Source: a virus
Length of the DNA: 22,870 nt
Strand: one strand, 5' to 3'
Virus record (IMG/VR): IMGVR_UViG_3300001737_000126
Coordinates: 1-22,870 of that record
This document shows, one piece after another, positions 2,139 to 22,870 of this stretch; within the stretch, counting starts at the first letter, position 1, and the number at the start of each line of letters is the position of its first letter. A program made the position numbers and the translations under genes. The notes beneath the pieces were generated by a model. It made no database searches. It saw nothing but the letters and a program-made list of their open reading frames with translations, and had not been told where the DNA came from.

Positions 2139-2926
2139 GAATGAATTACAAGTCGTATCCTACTGACTATATACAAGAGCTTAACCAAGAGAGAGGTCTT
2201 AAAGGCCGTAAAAAGTCTCGTGCTTTTATGGAGTACTACAACGACGTAGAACATGCTGAATATAACTCTGTTGGCTTCTATGCTAAGAGCTGGGAAGTTA
2301 GTAAGAGTACGGCACATGAGTGGATAAAAGAGTATACGATAGAGATAGAGCTTTTCTTGTCACATTGGAGCCTTAAAAATAAGCAACACTATACTAGTGT
2401 AAAAAATCACACCGAACGGTTACAGGATAAAACGAACGGCTACAAACCCCAAAATATTGGGAAAGTAGAAGAACAAGCCGAACGGCAACCGAACAAAGAT
2501 TTTAATCTATATAATAACAATAGCGCGAGACCTGAACATTGGCATCAGAGTAAAGAGTTTAATGACTTATATTTTGTTTATGGTGTCAATACTAAATACA
2601 AAGGCAAAAAAGAAGATGCTTATGAAGTCTTTAAGTATATGGAGATAGATGTGGACCTGTTGAAGTTAGCAGCTATGAAATACTTACATGATCCAGATAC
2701 AGAGGGTAAAAGATATAACTTAACAAACTTCTTGAAGAATGAAATATATATCTCATATCTACCAAAGAGAATGAAGCTCACACTCGATGGAAGTGTAAGA
2801 GTTGGAAACTACTACGACGATAAGAAGCTATTTGTTTGTGATAGTGGAGAGTTTAATGGTCATCTCTCAGGAAAGAGACTTATAGAACTCTACCAAACAG
2901 GTAACCTGGAGTATATAAATGAATAA
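2135..2926 (+). CDS. Unknown protein of the replication region
   Basis: I do not recognise a family for this 263-residue protein. Residues about 20-75 are helical and basic, and the segment 'YAKSWEVSKSTAHEWIKEY' looks like a helix-turn-helix. The middle (about 85-145) is a polar, low-complexity linker rich in Asn, Gln, Lys and Glu. The C-terminal part (about 145-263) has alternating helices and short strands. A DNA-binding N-terminus, a flexible linker and a C-terminal helical domain next to a helicase recall phage initiator or helicase-loader proteins (O/DnaD-like), but that is positional inference. ATG 2135 was chosen because GAGG at 2121-2124 lies 10 nt upstream and the gene overlaps the helicase stop as ATGA; ATG 2141 is an alternative. 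Confidence 0.6.
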   Translation: MRMNYKSYPTDYIQELNQERGLKGRKKSRAFMEYYNDVEHAEYNSVGFYAKSWEVSKSTAHEWIKEYTIEIELFLSHWSLKNKQHYTSVKNHTERLQDKTNGYKPQNIGKVEEQAERQPNKDFNLYNNNSARPEHWHQSKEFNDLYFVYGVNTKYKGKKEDAYEVFKYMEIDVDLLKLAAMKYLHDPDTEGKRYNLTNFLKNEIYISYLPKRMKLTLDGSVRVGNYYDDKKLFVCDSGEFNGHLSGKRLIELYQTGNLEYINE

Positions 2927-2956
2927 CTTAACTACAAACAATATGGAGCAAAAGAT

Positions 2957-3205
2957 ATGAGCACACCAAACATGGAAGATATAGTTGAGAGAATCAAAGA
3001 TGTACTAAGTAGAGATACTCATGATGCAAAAGTACTTGACAAGAATGTTGCGTTTACACTTGGTATAAGTCCAGCTGCTCTATCTATGAAGAAGAACAGA
3101 AACCTCTTGCCATATGATGAACTTACAATGTTCTGCATAAACAACAAAGTAAATACAAATTGGCTATTCTTTGGAATTGGCAGTATGGATATGAACTATG
3201 CCTAA
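2957..3205 (+). CDS. CI-type HTH regulator (N-terminal repressor domain only)
   Basis: The protein has 82 residues and corresponds to the DNA-binding domain of Phage_CI_repr-type repressors. 'DKNVAFTLGISPAALSMKK' contains the helix-turn-helix, and 'YDELTMFCINNKVNTNWLFF' is the usual continuation ('IxxYCxxNxINxxWLLxG'). It lacks the C-terminal S24 peptidase or oligomerisation domain of full-length CI repressors, so it cannot be a RecA-cleavable repressor on its own. It may act as a Cro-like or accessory regulator of the structural genes. GGAG at about 2946-2949 precedes ATG 2957. The 3' end overlaps the HNH gene by 8 bp. Confidence 0.75.
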   Translation: MSTPNMEDIVERIKDVLSRDTHDAKVLDKNVAFTLGISPAALSMKKNRNLLPYDELTMFCINNKVNTNWLFFGIGSMDMNYA

Positions 3206-3581
3206 AAAGATTTGTAATGAAATCTCATGCAACACTCTCATACCAATGAGTGAGAGATATTGTGCTGCACATAAGAGAGATAATATTCAAAGACGAAATA
3301 GTCACTATGACAAGAACTTCAGAAACAAGAAACATCAAATCTTTTACTCTTCAAGTGAATGGAGAAAGATAAGAAAGATAGTAATGATAAAGGCTGGTGG
3401 ACTTTGTGCATCTTGTATGGATATGAACATAGTAACAAATGCTGATGTAGTAGATCACATTGTCCCAATCACAATAGACTATACAAAGCGACTAGAAGAG
3501 TCGAATTTACAGCCACTTTGTCATACATGTCACAACAAAAAGACAGCTGATGATGAGCTATGTAATAGGAGGGGGGCATGA
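3198..3581 (+). CDS. HNH endonuclease
   Basis: The 127-residue protein is a small HNH nuclease of the kind commonly encoded just before terminase genes in HK97-like phages, where such proteins assist DNA cleavage at packaging. A leading Cys cluster (C6, C11, C22, H25) could bind zinc. The core reads 'SSEWRKIRKIVMIKAGGLC' with C70 and C73, 'VVDHIVPI' with D86-H87, N103 in 'ESNLQPLC', and C108/C111-H112 in 'LCHTCHNKK'. This gives the two metal-binding Cys pairs and the His-Asn-His catalytic set. The start overlaps the previous gene by 8 bp and has no strong ribosome-binding site, which suggests coupling. The stop overlaps a possible small ORF at 3578. Confidence 0.88.
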   Translation: MPKKICNEISCNTLIPMSERYCAAHKRDNIQRRNSHYDKNFRNKKHQIFYSSSEWRKIRKIVMIKAGGLCASCMDMNIVTNADVVDHIVPITIDYTKRLEESNLQPLCHTCHNKKTADDELCNRRGA

Positions 3582-3715
3582 AATACCTATATACTAAATC
3601 CGAAATTACCGACCCCCATCCTTTCATTTTACAAAAACTGATTTTCATGGGGTGGCTATTTATGGTTGAAATAACCAATATATTTAAGGTTCAAGCATTT
3701 TGCTTGGAACCTTAA
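3578..3715 (+). CDS. Possible 45-residue small protein between HNH and terminase genes
   Basis: An ATG at 3578 overlaps the HNH stop codon (ATGA, 3578-3581) and is preceded at 5 nt by AGGAGG (3567-3572). It opens a 45-codon frame ending at TAA 3713-3715. The start MKYLYTKSEITDPHPFILQK is followed by a hydrophobic middle (LIFMGWLFMV) and an aromatic, Cys-containing end. The ribosome-binding site and coupling favour translation. The last codons lie in the strong inverted repeat at 3685-3714, so part of the frame may simply be RNA structure. I do not recognise a family; a short membrane-associated peptide is one reading. Confidence 0.4.
   Translation: MKYLYTKSEITDPHPFILQKLIFMGWLFMVEITNIFKVQAFCLEP
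3685..3714 (+). repeat. Inverted repeat (RNA hairpin) before the small terminase gene
   Basis: TAAGGTTC-AAGCA (3685-3697) can pair with TGCTTGGAACCTTA (3701-3714) as a 13-bp stem with a single bulged base and a 3-nt loop. There is no T-run after it; AGGAGG of the next gene follows at 3719-3724. It is therefore more likely to be a processing, attenuation or translation-control structure between early and packaging genes than a simple intrinsic terminator. Confidence 0.6.
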
Positions 3716-3718
3716 GCC

Positions 3719-3724
3719 AGGAGG
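3719..3724 (+). promoter_or_regulatory. Strong ribosome-binding site of the small terminase gene
   Basis: AGGAGG lies 6 nt before ATG 3731 and directly after the hairpin at 3685-3714, fixing the start of the small terminase subunit. Folding of the hairpin leaves this site exposed. Confidence 0.7.
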
Positions 3725-3730
3725 TTAGTT

Positions 3731-4282
3731 ATGGCAAAAGGTATTGATTGGGATTTTATAAAGATTGAATATGAAGAGACAACAAAGTCAATTCGCTTGA
3801 TTGCTACTGAAAATGGAATAACTCATGGAGCAATCCAAAGAAGAGCTAAAAAAGAAAACTGGTCCAGAGGATCGCTTGATGTTATAAATGATAAATCTCT
3901 TACAAAAGCAAGTAATCCAATTCTAAAACGCCATGCTCTTAGAAAAATTGAAGAGATTAAGAATGAGCTTGGGGATAATTACTCAGTTCTTGATGAACCT
4001 TTAGTCATCGCGTTTGCACTGAACTATCAAAAATGGATAGCTACTCAAGAGATACTCCTGGAAGAAAAATCCATAGAAGTTAGCTCAAAGGGAAGTTTAT
4101 ATATTTCACCTTATGAGAACCTGGCAAAGATGTATGAAAACTCTTTTATAAAAATAGCAGGGCAAATTGGTCTTTCACTTGCATCTCGTAAACGAATAGG
4201 AGTTTCAACAAAGTCGGACTCAGATGAGGCTTCATTATTTGAGATTAGTGGACAGTTGGAAAATTATGACGTCGATGTGTAA
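3731..4282 (+). CDS. Phage terminase small subunit (P27-like with N-terminal HTH)
   Basis: This 183-residue protein is the likely DNA-recognition subunit of the packaging motor. Residues about 10-45 form a helix-turn-helix ('SIRLIATENGITHGAIQRRA' followed by KKENW), as in small terminases and terminase-like HTH proteins. Residues about 90-160 resemble the P27-type terminase small subunit: a helix with 'ALNYQKWIATQEIL', a short hairpin with 'SSKGSLYISPYENLAKMYE', and a last helix ending 'GLSLASRKRIG', matching the family's 'LGLTPxSRxRI' signature. The gene directly precedes the large subunit, the standard order. The reading frame overlaps the start of the large-subunit gene. Confidence 0.82.
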   Translation: MAKGIDWDFIKIEYEETTKSIRLIATENGITHGAIQRRAKKENWSRGSLDVINDKSLTKASNPILKRHALRKIEEIKNELGDNYSVLDEPLVIAFALNYQKWIATQEILLEEKSIEVSSKGSLYISPYENLAKMYENSFIKIAGQIGLSLASRKRIGVSTKSDSDEASLFEISGQLENYDVDV

Positions 4283-16034: not shown

Positions 16035-16972
16035 TGACTTATTTAGTACCTATAAAGAATGACATGGAAGTTGCATACAATAACTCTATTTACACAGTTA
16101 AGTATTTCAATAACATAATAAGCACAACAGCACTTGATAAAGCGAATACAGACTGGGACAGTACAACTAGTTTTGCAAAAGATAGTTGGGTGAGAGTTCC
16201 AGGTTTAAAAAGAGTTTATCGTTGCGCATCTGCTGAAAGCACAGACCAGTACCCACCAGCACATCCAAGTGTATGGATTGACTACGGTGCAACAAATTCT
16301 TATAAAATGTTTGATGACATCATCGGTTCACAGACTGAATTTGATACAAGTTTAACTTTGAGACTTAGTGGATCATCTGTAAATTCAATTGCTTTTTTAA
16401 ACATGGATGGAATTTCTTCTATATCAATAACACAGACGGATATGAATACTGGATTGATAATTTATGAAAACACAATATCTCTACAAGAGTTTGGGGTCTT
16501 AAGTCTGTACGACTACTGGTATAGACCTATTTCTTACAGAAGAGATTTAGTTTTAGACAGTCTTGGTTTTTCTACAGATGCAGAGTTAGAAATTACTTTT
16601 ACATCTGGTGGTATTGGAAAAATCGGTGCAGTTGTTACTGGCTTATCTGACTATCTTGGGATAACTCTCTATGGCTCAAAAGTAAGACTAAAAGACTACT
16701 CAAAATATACTGTAGACGATTACGGAAACACATCGTTTACAAAACGCGGATACGCAAGAATAATAACTGGGCAAGTATTAATAGATACAAACTTAGTAGA
16801 TGAAACAATGACAAAACTATCAGCACTTAGAGGTGGACTCACTCTTTTCGTTGCAGACGAAAGGCAAGATGGCTTCGCGTCAATGTCTACTCTTGGATAC
16901 ATCGAAGAGATAGAGATAGAACCAACAGCAAGTAAAACAAAATATCCAATCAAAATAATAGGAGTAATATAA
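16034..16972 (+). CDS. Distal tail protein (baseplate region), function uncertain
   Basis: The protein has 312 residues and lies between tape measure and tail fibre. Residues about 34-95 look like a small carbohydrate-binding-like module: 'DSWVRVPGLKRVYRCASAES' then 'HPSVWIDYGATN', a pattern shared with chitin-binding-like and 'CBM5/12' modules in phage tail proteins. The middle is beta-rich. The end contains 'LSALRGGLTLFVADERQDGF' and 'MSTLGYIEEIEIEP', as seen in tail tip proteins of several siphophages. A distal tail or host-contact role is thus likely, but the family is not certain. It overlaps the tape measure stop (TAATG) and is followed by TAATG of the fibre gene. Confidence 0.6.
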   Translation: MTYLVPIKNDMEVAYNNSIYTVKYFNNIISTTALDKANTDWDSTTSFAKDSWVRVPGLKRVYRCASAESTDQYPPAHPSVWIDYGATNSYKMFDDIIGSQTEFDTSLTLRLSGSSVNSIAFLNMDGISSISITQTDMNTGLIIYENTISLQEFGVLSLYDYWYRPISYRRDLVLDSLGFSTDAELEITFTSGGIGKIGAVVTGLSDYLGITLYGSKVRLKDYSKYTVDDYGNTSFTKRGYARIITGQVLIDTNLVDETMTKLSALRGGLTLFVADERQDGFASMSTLGYIEEIEIEPTASKTKYPIKIIGVI

Positions 16973-18765
16973 TGGAAATAACTACATTTATCACAGAGTA
17001 CAGCGGAGATGTTCCAAACAGAGCTGGAGACACGCCAATCGTTTTTGCAGAAAATGTATATAGCTATCAGATATGGATAGATCAGAATTTTGTACCTAAC
17101 TATAACCAATCAATTAGTGAAGTTAATCAAAAAATTAACGAAATAAAAACTTATAGCGAAGGTGTTTTTAATCAAGCAGTCGATGGTGGGTATAGCCAGG
17201 AATATATAAATGAAAATTTTCCTAGTAAATCTCAAACTTATCTAAAAGAAGAAGTTTACTCAAAGCTAGAAACGTACTCAAAAGAAGAAGTTTTTACAAA
17301 AGAAGAGTCAAAAGCATTGATAGCGAAAGAGGCATCTAACCCATTGACTACAACAAACCCAACAAATATAGGGGATATATGGGTTAATTCTCAAAGTGGA
17401 GAGATTTTCACTTGCACAGATAATACTACAGATACAAATGTTTGGGAAGGTACAAACGGAACAACTGTTCCTGCTCCTGCTACAGCTTCGGTATTTGGTA
17501 GAATTTGGAACATCACAGATGATGTCTATAAAAGAATAGGTTTGGATTTTGCAGATTTTGGAGTTGCTACCAAGCTTGAATTTGAGAACTGGTTAAGTCC
17601 AACTGCTGAGAGGGTAAACGACAATGATGTTTTCACTCCTAGTGATTTGACAAAAGAACTAGACACAAATACAAACTTGCCATTTAATAGCATAAAAAGA
17701 AAAGTAGTGTCTAATCTTGGACTAGTAACAGACTTTGACCATGTAACAGCTCCAAGTGCTACAGAACAAATAATGACAGAGATTCCAAAATGTTATTACG
17801 TAGATGTGACTGTAGTATCTGGTGGTAAAGAATATGATGTAAAACTTACTTCAATAAATCCATTTAGTGTCGATGCAATTGAAGACCTAGGATTTTTAAG
17901 TGTTGAGAGTATAACAGCATGGAATCCAACAACAGGAATATCATCTGGAACAATTAGTGGAAATGTGATTAGTTCTGTACTCCATCCCGCATTTGTTTGG
18001 CACGATGGAAGTGAAGCAGATTTCACATATGTAGGTTCTTTTTGGTCAGTTAGTGGTCGCTCTACTTTTGGTTCTGGCATAAGAGCCACTGCAAACATAA
18101 CACTACCAACAGCAAGAACTCAAAACAAGGCATTTGGAACAAACTTCAATCAGCATGACATATGGAATAATGCACTTATTCAGCTCCTGGCATACATAGA
18201 GAGAGGATCAAACTATTTAGAGCAAAGTGGAACTAAGTGGGATGGATATAGTTGGAACTCAGGAGCAGGAAGTTACAACCAAGACAATGGCTTAACTATT
18301 TCGCTTGAAAACAAGACTGGTGTAATCCTTGATGGAAGCTCAAGAGTCATAGCAAACTCATATAGAGGTATTGAAAACTATCATTCTGGTCTTTGGGTAT
18401 GGGTAGATGGAATTAATATAAACAGTGGAGTTTGTCACCTTGCAAAAGCTGGTTCAGTATTTGCCAGCGATACAGATGCCGCACCATACTTTTCTAGCGG
18501 TTATACAACTACAACTACTGCATCATGGAGAAATATAAACAAGTGGCAACCTGGAACATTTATACCAGATAACACTTCTGGTGGAACTACTAGCTCAAAA
18601 GTGTCTGACCAGATGTACGGAACAACAGGATGGCGAGTGCTGCGGTTCGGTGGGGGTTTGGCGAATCCTGGTCTTTCGGGTCTTTCGACTTGGCGTGGCG
18701 GCGATGCGTCTTCGAACTCTAATTGGGGGATTGTCTCTCGTGCGAGCTTTAGAAAATTTTTATAA
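16972..18765 (+). CDS. Tail fibre / receptor-binding protein, DGR target with C-terminal C-type-lectin-like domain
   Basis: This 597-residue protein is the likely host-recognition tip. Residues about 1-75 should attach to the tail. Residues about 80-115 hold a charged quasi-repeat (TYLKEEVYSKLETYSKEEVF). A small module follows ('GDIWVNSQSGEIFTCTDNT'). The C-terminal half carries blocks common to DGR-target proteins with the FGE-sulfatase/C-type-lectin fold: 'HPAFVWHDGSEADFTYVGSF', 'LLAYIERGSNY' and 'SGLWVWVDGI'. It ends with 'GWRVLRFGGGLANPGLSGLS' (553-572) and 'TWRGGDASSNSNWGIVSRAS' (573-592). The last 44 codons hold the variable repeat; residues 558, 562, 564, 568, 575, 577, 578 and 586 differ from the template at adenine codons. 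The scaffold residues N582, N584 and W585 are unchanged. Confidence 0.9.
   Translation: MEITTFITEYSGDVPNRAGDTPIVFAENVYSYQIWIDQNFVPNYNQSISEVNQKINEIKTYSEGVFNQAVDGGYSQEYINENFPSKSQTYLKEEVYSKLETYSKEEVFTKEESKALIAKEASNPLTTTNPTNIGDIWVNSQSGEIFTCTDNTTDTNVWEGTNGTTVPAPATASVFGRIWNITDDVYKRIGLDFADFGVATKLEFENWLSPTAERVNDNDVFTPSDLTKELDTNTNLPFNSIKRKVVSNLGLVTDFDHVTAPSATEQIMTEIPKCYYVDVTVVSGGKEYDVKLTSINPFSVDAIEDLGFLSVESITAWNPTTGISSGTISGNVISSVLHPAFVWHDGSEADFTYVGSFWSVSGRSTFGSGIRATANITLPTARTQNKAFGTNFNQHDIWNNALIQLLAYIERGSNYLEQSGTKWDGYSWNSGAGSYNQDNGLTISLENKTGVILDGSSRVIANSYRGIENYHSGLWVWVDGININSGVCHLAKAGSVFASDTDAAPYFSSGYTTTTTASWRNINKWQPGTFIPDNTSGGTTSSKVSDQMYGTTGWRVLRFGGGLANPGLSGLSTWRGGDASSNSNWGIVSRASFRKFL
18632..18745 (+). 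repeat. DGR variable repeat (VR)
   Basis: This 114-bp segment at the 3' end of the fibre gene matches 18814-18927 at an offset of 182 bp. I count 17 mismatches: 15 at template adenines (A to G at 18632, 18633, 18644, 18645, 18655, 18656, 18661, 18695, 18700, 18701, 18703, 18727 and 18728; A to C at 18673 and 18694) and two T to G (18708, 18729). The template has 26 adenines in this stretch. The last 16 bases (18730-18745) are identical and are the candidate initiation-of-mutagenic-homing region. Similarity upstream of 18631 is weak. Confidence 0.95.
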
Positions 18766-18766
18766 T
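18761..18766 (+). promoter_or_regulatory. Candidate -10 element for the template RNA / RT transcript
   Basis: A perfect TATAAT overlaps the fibre gene's stop codon (TAA 18763-18765). Transcription from it would start near 18773, about 40 nt before the template repeat. No good -35 is visible, though Campylobacterota promoters often lack one. In DNA this AT-rich, a chance match is quite possible. Confidence 0.3.
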
Positions 18767-18813
18767 ACTAACTTAAAGGAAACTTAAAAAAATGAATATA
18801 GGGAACAAGGGGG

Positions 18814-18927
18814 AACGAGTGCTGCAATTCGGTGGGAATTTGACGAATCCTGGTATTTCGGGTCTTTCGACTTGGAATGGCAACAATGCTTCTTCGAACT
18901 CTAATTGGAATATTGTCTCTCGTGCGA
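18814..18927 (+). repeat. DGR template repeat (TR)
   Basis: This is the donor copy for adenine-directed mutagenesis, 114 bp with 26 adenines on the coding strand. Adenines cluster in AAT/AAC/CAA codons that match the variable positions of the fibre tip (for example 18826-18827, 18837-18838, 18876-18877, 18882-18886 and 18909-18910). These are the codons that reach the most amino acids when A is randomised. It is much richer in G+C than the surrounding genes apart from the VR. Downstream of 18927 the sequence diverges completely from the region after the VR. Confidence 0.95.
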
Positions 18928-18951
18928 TTTTTTGTCAAACAGTTTTTAAAA

Positions 18952-19037
18952 TCCTCCTTGTTTCCTTGGCTCTTGCCAAAACACATTACTATCTCTCTAT
19001 GCAGATTAGTAGCTTACAAGCGAAACTTTGGGGAGGA
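18952..19037 (+). ncRNA. Possible structured RNA leader between TR and RT gene
   Basis: Hand-found pairing: TCCTCC (18952-18957) with GGAGGA (19032-19037), GTTTC (18960-18964) with GAAAC (19022-19026), and CTTG (18965-18968) with CAAG (19017-19020). The loop contains an alternative perfect hairpin TTGGC-TCTT-GCCAA (18966-18979). The outer stem would hide the RT ribosome-binding site. The DGR RNA of the Bordetella phage needs sequence 3' of the template for priming, so this segment could serve both that and RT control. No folding program was run. Confidence 0.4.
19030..19036 (+). promoter_or_regulatory. Ribosome-binding site of the reverse transcriptase gene
   Basis: GGGGAGG lies 9 nt before ATG 19046 and determines that start. 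An in-frame TTG at 19028 lies upstream of and inside this element and is rejected. The site may be sequestered by TCCTCC at 18952-18957. Confidence 0.7.
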
Positions 19038-19045
19038 CAAAAGCT

Positions 19046-20119
19046 ATGAAAAGAGTTAATAACCTTTTTGAGAAAATTGTAGATATAAATAATATTATCA
19101 GAGCACATAATAATGCTAGAAAAAATAAGGCTCACTATAATGAAGTAAAGATGTTTGATAGTGATCCATACTTTTATGCAAACAAAATAAGAGAGATGTT
19201 ACTTGATGGTTCATGGATTCCATCTGATAGTATAAAATTTGAGACAACAGATAGTGGAAAAAGAAGACTTATAACAAATGTAAAATACTTTCCTGACAGA
19301 ATAGTGCATCATGCAATCATGCAAGTTACAGAGCCAGTGTTTCAAAGTACATATATCAAAGATACCTATCAGAGCATAAAAAACAGAGGGTTGCACAAAG
19401 GTGCAGCAAGAGTTAAGTCATGGCTAAAGGATGAAGAGAATACAGAGTATTGTCTTAAAGTAGACATCGAAAAGTTTTACCCCAGCATGAAACAGCATAT
19501 AGTGAAAAAGTTTTGTAGAAAAAAGATTAAATGCAAAAAAACTTTAGAGCTTCTTGATTTACTTATTGACTCAGAAGATGGTCTTCCTATTGGATTTTAC
19601 TCTTCTCAGTGTTTAGGAAACTTTGTAGTGAGCTATATGGATCACTACATAAAATCTCTTGGTGCAAAGTACTACATAAGGTATGCAGATGACATAGTTA
19701 TATTTCATAAGAGTAAAGAGTTTTTACATTTTCTAAGAGTAAAAATGCAGACATATATGAATGATGTTCTTGAATTAAAAATGAAAAGAAACTACCAGGT
19801 GTTTCCATTTAAAAAACGCGGACTTGATTTTCTAGGGTATAGATTTTTTAGAAAATATACACTCGTACGCAAGAGCATTGTTAAGAAAATGAAAAAATCT
19901 TTTAAAAAGAGTGTCAAAAACCTAAGTGATATAAGTAGAGTTATGAGTTATCTGGGATGGGTAAAGTGGGCTAATTCATATAATTTATTGAGGACATATG
20001 TGCCAGGTGTTTTAAATATTGTAGAGAGAGTTTCAAAGAGGATTAAGATTAGAAATCCACTCAGAAACATATATCTTTTACCTAAACCAAAAAAAGTTCA
20101 ACTGAGCTTTAATTTTTAA
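19046..20119 (+). CDS. DGR reverse transcriptase
   Basis: The 357-residue enzyme should copy the template RNA into adenine-mutagenised cDNA that replaces the variable repeat. Motifs in order are 'RRLITNVKYFPDRIVHHAI' (about 73-91), 'YCLKVDIEKFYPSM' with catalytic D140, and 'GLPIGFYSSQCLGNFVVSYM' (179-198). In the last, S187-Q188 replaces the SP of retroviral and group II enzymes, a hallmark of DGR reverse transcriptases. Then come 'YIRYADDIVIF' with D215-D216 and 'LDFLGYRF' (260-267), followed by a basic thumb region. There is no maturase or endonuclease domain, and length is normal for DGR enzymes. The TR lies 118 bp upstream. The next gene begins 12 bp after the stop. Confidence 0.95.
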   Translation: MKRVNNLFEKIVDINNIIRAHNNARKNKAHYNEVKMFDSDPYFYANKIREMLLDGSWIPSDSIKFETTDSGKRRLITNVKYFPDRIVHHAIMQVTEPVFQSTYIKDTYQSIKNRGLHKGAARVKSWLKDEENTEYCLKVDIEKFYPSMKQHIVKKFCRKKIKCKKTLELLDLLIDSEDGLPIGFYSSQCLGNFVVSYMDHYIKSLGAKYYIRYADDIVIFHKSKEFLHFLRVKMQTYMNDVLELKMKRNYQVFPFKKRGLDFLGYRFFRKYTLVRKSIVKKMKKSFKKSVKNLSDISRVMSYLGWVKWANSYNLLRTYVPGVLNIVERVSKRIKIRNPLRNIYLLPKPKKVQLSFNF

Positions 20120-20131
20120 TAAGGAACAAAA

Positions 20132-20566
20132 ATGAAAATAATTAGAAACATAAGAGCAAGCGAGAAGCAAGATGGCATATCTGAGTATGGAAATGAAGCT
20201 CATGTGCTTTTAAACGAGAGAGAGATTGATGTTGATGGAACTATTCAATACGAATATGACAAAGTGGTAGTTGCTAATTTTCAAGAGTATCACAATGTTT
20301 ATGAAATTGCAGAGTTCTATTTTAAAGAAAATAACAAACAGGAATTACTTGATGAAATTTTAGTTACGACTATAAGCGGTAAAACTTTTTATGCTGATCC
20401 AATCAGCAGAACTGATTTGTCGGATGCAATATCAATAGCAGCTGAAACAAATCAAACATCTAAAGAGTGGAAGCTTAAGACTGGGTGGGAGATTGTAACT
20501 CTTGAAGAGATGAAGGAAGCAAGGGAGTTAGGACTTATGCGAAAGGGAGAGATTATTGCATCATGA
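20132..20566 (+). CDS. DUF4376-like tail-associated protein
   Basis: The protein has 144 residues. The C-terminal part (about 70-135) reads 'TISGKTFYADPISRTDLSDA', then 'WKLKTGWEIVTLEEMKEA', matching the DUF4376 layout: a substrate strand with F-x-A-D, a helix with SRxxLxxAI, and a Trp-containing strand before a final helix. Such domains are common in proteins next to tail fibres, where they may help fibre assembly; exact function is unknown. The N-terminal half is beta-rich and unfamiliar. It is not Avd-like, because the DGR accessory protein is an all-helical basic bundle. AAGGAAC precedes the ATG, and the stop overlaps the next ATG (ATGA). Confidence 0.62.
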   Translation: MKIIRNIRASEKQDGISEYGNEAHVLLNEREIDVDGTIQYEYDKVVVANFQEYHNVYEIAEFYFKENNKQELLDEILVTTISGKTFYADPISRTDLSDAISIAAETNQTSKEWKLKTGWEIVTLEEMKEARELGLMRKGEIIAS

Positions 20567-20898
20567 TTAAATATAGCGATTTAACAGATAATCAAAAAAG
20601 TCTTATTACTAATGGATGTGGTGCAAAAGGTGGATTTATAAACCCACCAGACTTCATCTTTAAAGCTTCATGCAATCAACACGACTTTTACTATTGGAGA
20701 GGTATGGATGAAGAGGATAGAAAAAAGGCTGATAATGCTTTTTATAAGTATATGAGAATTGACATATCAGAAGTTAGCTTTCATAAGAAACCATATTACC
20801 ATCTATGGGCTTTTTCTTACTACTCCATGGTTAGACTTTTTGGAAAGAAGTATTTCTCTTATGCTTACAGATATAAAACTTTAGAGGACTTATTATGA
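20563..20898 (+). CDS. Phospholipase A2-like protein
   Basis: This 111-residue protein carries the signature of secreted phospholipases A2. 'NGCGAKGG' (17-24) resembles the calcium-binding loop, and 'ASCNQHDFYYWRG' (35-47) holds the catalytic His-Asp pair (H40, D41) with Cys37. A helix with 'DRKKADNAFYKYM' then supplies a further Asp (D57), as in prokaryotic PLA2 ('aDxxFxxxM'). It has no signal peptide and few cysteines, unlike venom enzymes. If active it would hydrolyse membrane phospholipids, helping lysis or, if virion-borne, entry. It opens the lysis block and is coupled by ATGA to neighbours on both sides. Confidence 0.72.
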   Translation: MIKYSDLTDNQKSLITNGCGAKGGFINPPDFIFKASCNQHDFYYWRGMDEEDRKKADNAFYKYMRIDISEVSFHKKPYYHLWAFSYYSMVRLFGKKYFSYAYRYKTLEDLL

Positions 20899-22361: not shown

Positions 22362-22466
22362 ATGAAAAGTTTATATCTTGCGTTTTACTTAGTCTTTAGT
22401 GAAATATTTATGAGAGTTAGTTTATCAGGCAATGGCATAAAATCAAACAAAAGGAGATATAGATGA
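22362..22466 (+). CDS. Possible 34-residue small protein
   Basis: ATG 22362 starts 2 bp after the previous stop, with GAGGAAG upstream, and opens 34 codons ending at TGA 22464-22466, overlapping the peptidase ATG (ATGA). The N-terminal half is hydrophobic (MKSLYLAFYLVFSEIFMRV) and the end is basic (KSNKRRYR). The last codons contain AAAAGGAG, the ribosome-binding site of the next gene. It may be a coupling leader or a tiny membrane peptide; codon evidence is too short to decide. Confidence 0.3.
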   Translation: MKSLYLAFYLVFSEIFMRVSLSGNGIKSNKRRYR

Positions 22467-22870
22467 TAAAGAGTAAATATTATAAAGTGCATGAATTTGT
22501 ACCAAAAAGTTTCTATGAGGAGTATGGAGAGAAGGCTTGGAGATTTGTTCCTATTGCGATGATTGAAACAGCCGATACACTAAAAGAAAGATTTCCTCTT
22601 GGTACTATTACTATAAACAATTACTTTTGGGGAGGAAATAGAGAGTGGAGTGGGATAAGAACACCATCTAGTCCATATTACAGTGAAACATCTATGCACT
22701 CATTCGGTGCTATTGACTCAGTATATAGTCACTACACAGCAGAAGAGGTAAGAAACGACATTATATGCAATCCGCATTTATATCCTCATGTTAAAGGATT
22801 AGAACTTGGTGTTAGTTGGGTGCATACTGACTTTAGGAACGAGATAGATCTTATTTTATTTACTGCATAA
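22463..22870 (+). CDS. M15-type peptidase, probable endolysin
   Basis: This 135-residue protein has the zinc-peptidase pattern of the M15 (D-Ala-D-Ala carboxypeptidase / L-Ala-D-Glu peptidase) group. 'SMHSFGAIDSVY' gives zinc ligands H79 and D85, and 'GLELGVSWVHTDFRN' gives the catalytic Glu (E114) and third ligand H121. 'ITINNYFWGGNREWSGIR' is the usual strand and loop before the active site. A single small catalytic domain and no cell-wall-binding module match endolysins of phages infecting Gram-negative hosts. It would cut the stem peptides of peptidoglycan after the holin opens. There is no signal peptide, so it depends on the holin. AAAGGAG precedes ATG 22463. The window ends at its stop codon. 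Confidence 0.8.
   Translation: MIKSKYYKVHEFVPKSFYEEYGEKAWRFVPIAMIETADTLKERFPLGTITINNYFWGGNREWSGIRTPSSPYYSETSMHSFGAIDSVYSHYTAEEVRNDIICNPHLYPHVKGLELGVSWVHTDFRNEIDLILFTA

Follow-up and report, generated by a model that had tools for sequence, protein, structure and literature searches.

A predicted phage diversity-generating retroelement with a template repeat enclosed by a covarying helix

The window, a 22,870-bp IMG/VR virus record analysed over its whole length, is best explained as carrying a phage diversity-generating retroelement (DGR) of a group without detectable Avd, which would diversify a C-type-lectin-like fibre tip; we put the probability of this reading at about 94%. It draws on adenine bias between a template repeat (TR) and a variable repeat (VR), kinship of the reverse transcriptase (RT), the target's family and its fold as judged by profile and model, a conserved template RNA, covariation of a helix around the TR and VR turnover in relatives. 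Judged from its sequence, the DGR is real and probably active. A DGR acting on a phage fibre is a known kind, one of many; what merits further attention is the RNA architecture.

The cassette and its target

The window encodes an HK97-type head module (portal, protease and major capsid protein), a terminase, a tape measure protein and a CII-like regulator, and its source is therefore likely to be a temperate long-tailed phage. The target–TR–RT order on a single strand given in the initial annotation was correct, and the features are as follows.

16972–18765, + strand: target, a tail fibre or receptor-binding protein of 597 amino acids with a predicted C-terminal C-type-lectin-like domain (phrog_5302 tail protein; profile A3; model)
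18632–18745, + strand: VR, fibre residues 554–592, with the stop codon 20 bp 3′ (gapless alignment with the TR)
18800–18814, + strand: 5′ arm of the TR-enclosing helix (AGGGAACAAGGGGGA; 15 of 15 pairs with 18952–18966, two of them G-U)
18814–18927, + strand: TR (15 of 17 VR differences fall on its adenines)
18952–18966, + strand: 3′ arm of the TR-enclosing helix (TCCTCCTTGTTTCCT; pairs with 18800–18814)
18964–19055, + strand: conserved DGR template-RNA module, RT-17-like (model R1, 58.2 bits, E=1e-12)
19046–20119, + strand: DGR RT of 357 amino acids, with SSQ at 19601–19609 and YADD at 19682–19693 (phrog_1423, E=7e-101; 8ub7, E=4e-35)

Re-alignment of VR and TR (offset 182) agreed with the repeat first described: 114 gapless columns with 17 differences, 15 of which lie on the 26 TR adenines, an excess that held when we tested it (Fisher p=4e-10). 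This pair is the largest direct repeat in the region. From TR to VR, the adenine changes comprise 13 A>G, two A>C and no A>T; the other two differences are T>G, none falls at a TR C or G, and the VR base is G in 15 and C in 2 of the 17 columns. Columns 18632–18633 are A mismatches, and the identity-anchored copy covers 112 bp (18634–18745 and 18816–18927), in which 13 of the 15 differences fall on 24 adenines (p=6e-9). With the fibre copy taken as template, the bias was weaker (15/17 at 44 G; p=8e-6). G+C content is 0.60 in the VR, 0.45 in the TR and 0.37 in the remaining fibre gene. DGRs are recognized by at least 75% of VR/TR differences falling at TR adenines (PMC8144416); the share here is 88% (15/17), and the VR lies within a protein gene with the TR nearby, adjoining the RT.

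The RT open reading frame is intact, and the YADD and DGR-type SSQ motifs noted initially were both located in frame with an ATG at 19046. Among solved structures, its best match is 8ub7, which we take to be the Bordetella DGR RT; the top-scoring group II intron RT gave 6e-16 and retron chains 0.009, and profiles of these two classes matched weakly, far under their cut-offs. In a tree of 31 RTs that included three group II intron and five retron RTs as contrast, the window, its relatives and BPP-1 Brt formed one clade (100/99) apart from the contrast set, and the window clustered with loci L010–L018 (95/91). Because BPP-1 and some other RTs are long-branched, we do not rely on the order within this clade. 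The phrog_1423 and 8ub7 matches and the tree all place the enzyme among DGR RTs. As a separate observation, two Helicobacter canis prophages (L021 and L022), the only annotated phage relatives spanning most of the fibre, encode a long-branch DGR RT with SA in place of SQ (LSLGSYLSAILGN), and an A-biased VR–TR pair is present despite this motif.

A search with the fibre domain gave 80 homologues, of which 49 had an A-biased VR–TR pair, 49 had an RT with SQ and DD motifs and 45 had both. Every one of the 71 sequences in alignment A3 matched phrog_5302, and the A3 profile matched TaqVP (5vf4; E=5e-16), a DGR variable protein whose C-type lectin fold is known (PMC6328139). A first fibre model built from 13 sequences was discarded (pLDDT 40). 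A second AlphaFold model of the tip (pLDDT 78, pTM 0.83) matched TaqVP in Foldseek (8e-12), as well as phage tail fibres and, weakly, Bordetella Mtd (7e-3). Its TM-scores were modest (about 0.5 to TaqVP and 0.3 to Mtd), so the fold assignment draws mainly on the profile. Profile and model together support the initial proposal of a C-type-lectin-like fibre tip with the VR at the C terminus, and the homologues place it in a DGR-target family. In one relative (L096), tandem homologous target genes (1371–2564 and 2587–3909) lie upstream of a single TR, which suggests that its DGR has two targets.

A helix around the TR and an RT-17-like module

Around the TR lies a covarying 15-bp helix, after which comes a conserved RT-17-related RNA. 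Folding of 18766–19060 gave a helix around the TR, and none of 200 shuffles reached the pairing of its arms. For covariation, we used 37 non-redundant loci, the window included, and compared the stretch just 5′ of the module's hairpin with the TR-upstream region of its own and of every other locus. Own arms paired best in 26 of the 37 loci (1 expected; p=3e-19), and the arm sequences vary widely among loci. Under symmetric scoring, there were 36 G-T pairs versus 8 A-C mismatches (p=1e-5), an excess that points to sense-strand RNA. Across loci, the median distance from the end of the 5′ arm to the TR start downstream is 7 nt, and in the window the arm ends directly at that start; the 3′ arm adjoins the conserved module. 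When BPP-1 was put through the same test, no TR-enclosing helix was detected.

The module opens with a hairpin, TTGGC-TCTT-GCCAA at 18966–18979 in the window, and its consensus elements are the hairpin TTGSC-NCTT-GSCAA, AAAACACA, TTRGTAG and CGAA. Covariance model R1, built from 21 relatives with the window excluded, matched the window as listed above and 18 further loci. The Rfam RT-17 model scored 22.6 bits on the window, under its cut-off of 40.4; at the same place, seven relatives reached the RT-17 cut-off and one that of RT-18. The Rfam Phage_DGR model gave 16.7 bits on the window (cut-off 50) and 104.7 bits on BPP-1.

In BPP-1, a spacer RNA recruits the RT complex and an internal adenine primes, and a motif within the avd mRNA terminates cDNA synthesis (PMC12875486). 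The RT-17-like module should play the analogous part for the window RT, recruiting and priming it, and the position of the TR-closing helix suggests that it may set the cDNA end. We tentatively extend this to the Avd-less group as a whole, in a model that we consider possible but doubtful: a long-range RNA helix would hold the TR in its loop, its 5′ arm running up to the TR start and its 3′ arm adjoining an RT-17-like RT-binding module; this helix would stop the RT, setting which part of the target is rewritten and replacing the avd-borne stop of Bordetella; and RT-17 and RT-18 would be parts of DGR template RNAs.

VR turnover and error profile in relatives

We examined RT relatives at 17 viral-contig loci (39–47% RT identity) and two genome loci, plus phage records. 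Using a script that seeks only repeats with template-A mismatches, we found the VR–TR–RT order with A-specific differences in all RT relatives with available flanks. The variation across related phages that the initial annotation had predicted is present in three near-identical pairs. L010 and L011 differ by 17 substitutions and one 3-bp indel, all in the VR, with no internal difference across the remaining 17 kb. In L013 and L015, both differences found over 13.3 kb fall at TR adenines, and in L003 and L004 the VR holds 15 substitutions and an indel, with 2 substitutions outside. Because these pairs differ almost solely in the VR, this group of DGRs is, by its sequence record, active; such turnover with a constant remainder is seen in relatives at 40–47% RT identity to the window. 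Searches for a second VR of the window phage or a near relative found none: the TR DNA pattern had no match in viral contigs, the fibre and the phrog_6278 protein as single queries returned no relatives from viral contigs, and megablast of the whole window against phages gave no hits.

These comparisons overturned one earlier idea, that the unchanged adenines at N565, T573, N582 and N584 mark scaffold positions kept by selection. The list itself was incomplete, as 11 adenines are unchanged, including those in CGA of R555, the second A of D578, I587 and S592. In 47 DGR-bearing homologues the aligned sites are hypervariable, in line with the rest of the variable positions: the VR residue differs from that of its own TR at sites 565, 573, 582 and 584 in 36, 31, 40 and 40 of the 47, respectively, and at 565, 582 and 584 the TR codon specifies Asn in 44–45 of the 47. 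Among TR adenines at first and second codon positions, 66% have changed in the relatives, as compared with 58% of all TR adenines in the window, and unchanged adenines are therefore expected by chance.

Across the relatives, A>G makes up 55% of changes (231/423), similar to the 59% C misincorporation recorded in E. coli for the Bordetella RT (PMC12875486). Sequence context had a pronounced effect: of 140 TR adenines standing before G in the 47 relatives of alignment A3, 124 had become G and none C or T, and AG became GG at third codon positions too (53/62). In AA and AT contexts, G accounted for 41% of changes. Template AG is thus converted almost deterministically to GG in relatives. In the window, 13 of 15 adenine changes are A>G against a context expectation of 7.4 (P=0.002, a post hoc test on a single VR), and we counted this G-bias above that of the relatives against our preferred reading. 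We also considered whether AA doublets change jointly (in the window, 6 changed, 3 unchanged and 1 mixed); the 90 mixed doublets among 178 in relatives are what independent adenines would give, so this idea was not borne out.

Known systems, alternatives and mechanism

The window resembles the BPP-1 DGR (mtd-avd-TR-brt) in its target–TR–RT order, its adenine-specific TR/VR differences, its related RT, its 3′-terminal VR in the gene for a C-type-lectin receptor-binding protein, and structured RNA between TR and RT. Unlike BPP-1, it has no avd between VR and TR and no GRNA hairpin after the VR, its template RNA is of a different family, and its TR is enclosed by a helix. Avd (NF033474) was not found in the window or 15 relatives, the BPP-1 control being the only match among 17 records; the window is a fragment, and a diverged accessory protein might escape this profile. 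PF05635 had been tried as an Avd probe and matched nothing, controls included; NF033474, for which BPP-1 served as positive control, therefore took its place. Between −20 and +70 relative to the end of the VR, we saw no stem of 5 bp or longer. Avd and the hairpin both matter in BPP-1, and their lack here counts against the preferred reading. The initial description of "complete hallmarks" thus stands for VR, TR and DGR RT, and was too strong for a Bordetella-type element, as Avd, the GC-rich GRNA-loop hairpin and the Phage_DGR RNA are all missing from the window.

Closer likenesses lie elsewhere. The crAss-like and other phage DGRs with a phrog_1423 RT and a phrog_5302 target (for example, uncultured phage cr55_1, L024) have an RT 44% identical to that of the window, a homologous target domain, the same cassette order and the same hairpin and RNA module; they are diverged, and the phage backbone differs. 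Rfam RT-17 (RF03020) and RT-18 (RF03021) share the position between TR and RT and the opening hairpin, although the 95-position RT-17 model starts matching at the hairpin and leaves out the TR-enclosing helix. TaqVP likewise carries its VR at the C terminus of an FGE-type C-type lectin fold (PMC6328139), although identity is 17% and the window protein, a phage fibre, also has an N-terminal portion.

One alternative is that the complementarity flanking the TR is a DNA inverted repeat, extruded as a cruciform, rather than an RNA helix. There is a precedent in BPP-1, in which a DNA hairpin adjoining the VR promotes homing (PMC3240598), but the arms here flank the TR rather than the VR, the 3′ arm abuts the RT-17-like RNA and the G-T excess is that expected of sense-strand RNA; we consider a DNA structure unlikely. 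Somewhat less probable still is a decayed or now inactive DGR, which worked formerly and cannot home without Avd and a target hairpin. That neither was found in the record and that one VR sequence is known would fit such decay. Against it, the RT with its YADD and SSQ motifs is intact, as are the template RNA and helix, TR and VR remain identical at every C and G, and relatives without detectable Avd, mostly lacking the hairpin, vary their VRs freely.

We give almost no credence to the possibility that the repeats are an ordinary partial gene duplication beside an unrelated RT of group II intron or retron type: the weak profile matches to those enzymes are its only recommendation, and it is contradicted by the restriction of differences to adenines, the RT clade, the 8ub7 match and the same cassette layout in relatives.

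In the preferred reading, that of an Avd-less DGR, a transcript through TR and RT would fold so that the TR becomes a large loop shut by the 15-bp helix, and the conserved module after the helix probably binds the RT. The RT would copy the TR, misincorporating at adenines with G as the most frequent outcome in the VR, and cDNA synthesis might stop at the 5′ arm of the helix, which reaches the TR start. The cDNA would then take the place of the VR, at the fibre gene's 3′ end, and alter up to ~10 exposed residues (562, 564, 565, 568, 575, 577, 578, 582, 584 and 586). These would sit on the C-type-lectin-like tip, which most likely binds the host surface, and hypervariation would follow changes in that surface, the role first proposed. 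By analogy with the Bordetella system, we infer adenine misincorporation by the window RT, priming, retrohoming and host-receptor binding.

The value of the comparison is that a large phage DGR group without detectable Avd shares a covarying TR-closing helix and an RT-17-like module, a template RNA that could explain how the cDNA end is fixed without the Bordetella signals. It ties two Rfam families of unnamed role, RT-17 and RT-18, to DGRs, and the architecture gives design rules for programmable diversification that are testable in E. coli. The 47-locus VR/TR comparison also provides a natural error profile, in which a changed AG is always GG.

Fibre and DGR appear to be exchanged between phages as one module. 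Sister phages found by the major capsid protein, the closest with 66–80% identity in head genes (L026, L034, L035 and others), contain neither the RT nor the window-type fibre, so the module is dispensable or swapped; because both are absent, these phages yielded no second VR. Between the DGR and a partial endolysin gene (22463–22870), the window also encodes a small protein in which a prokaryotic phospholipase A2 domain was recognized (20563–20898; PF09056, E=2e-7).
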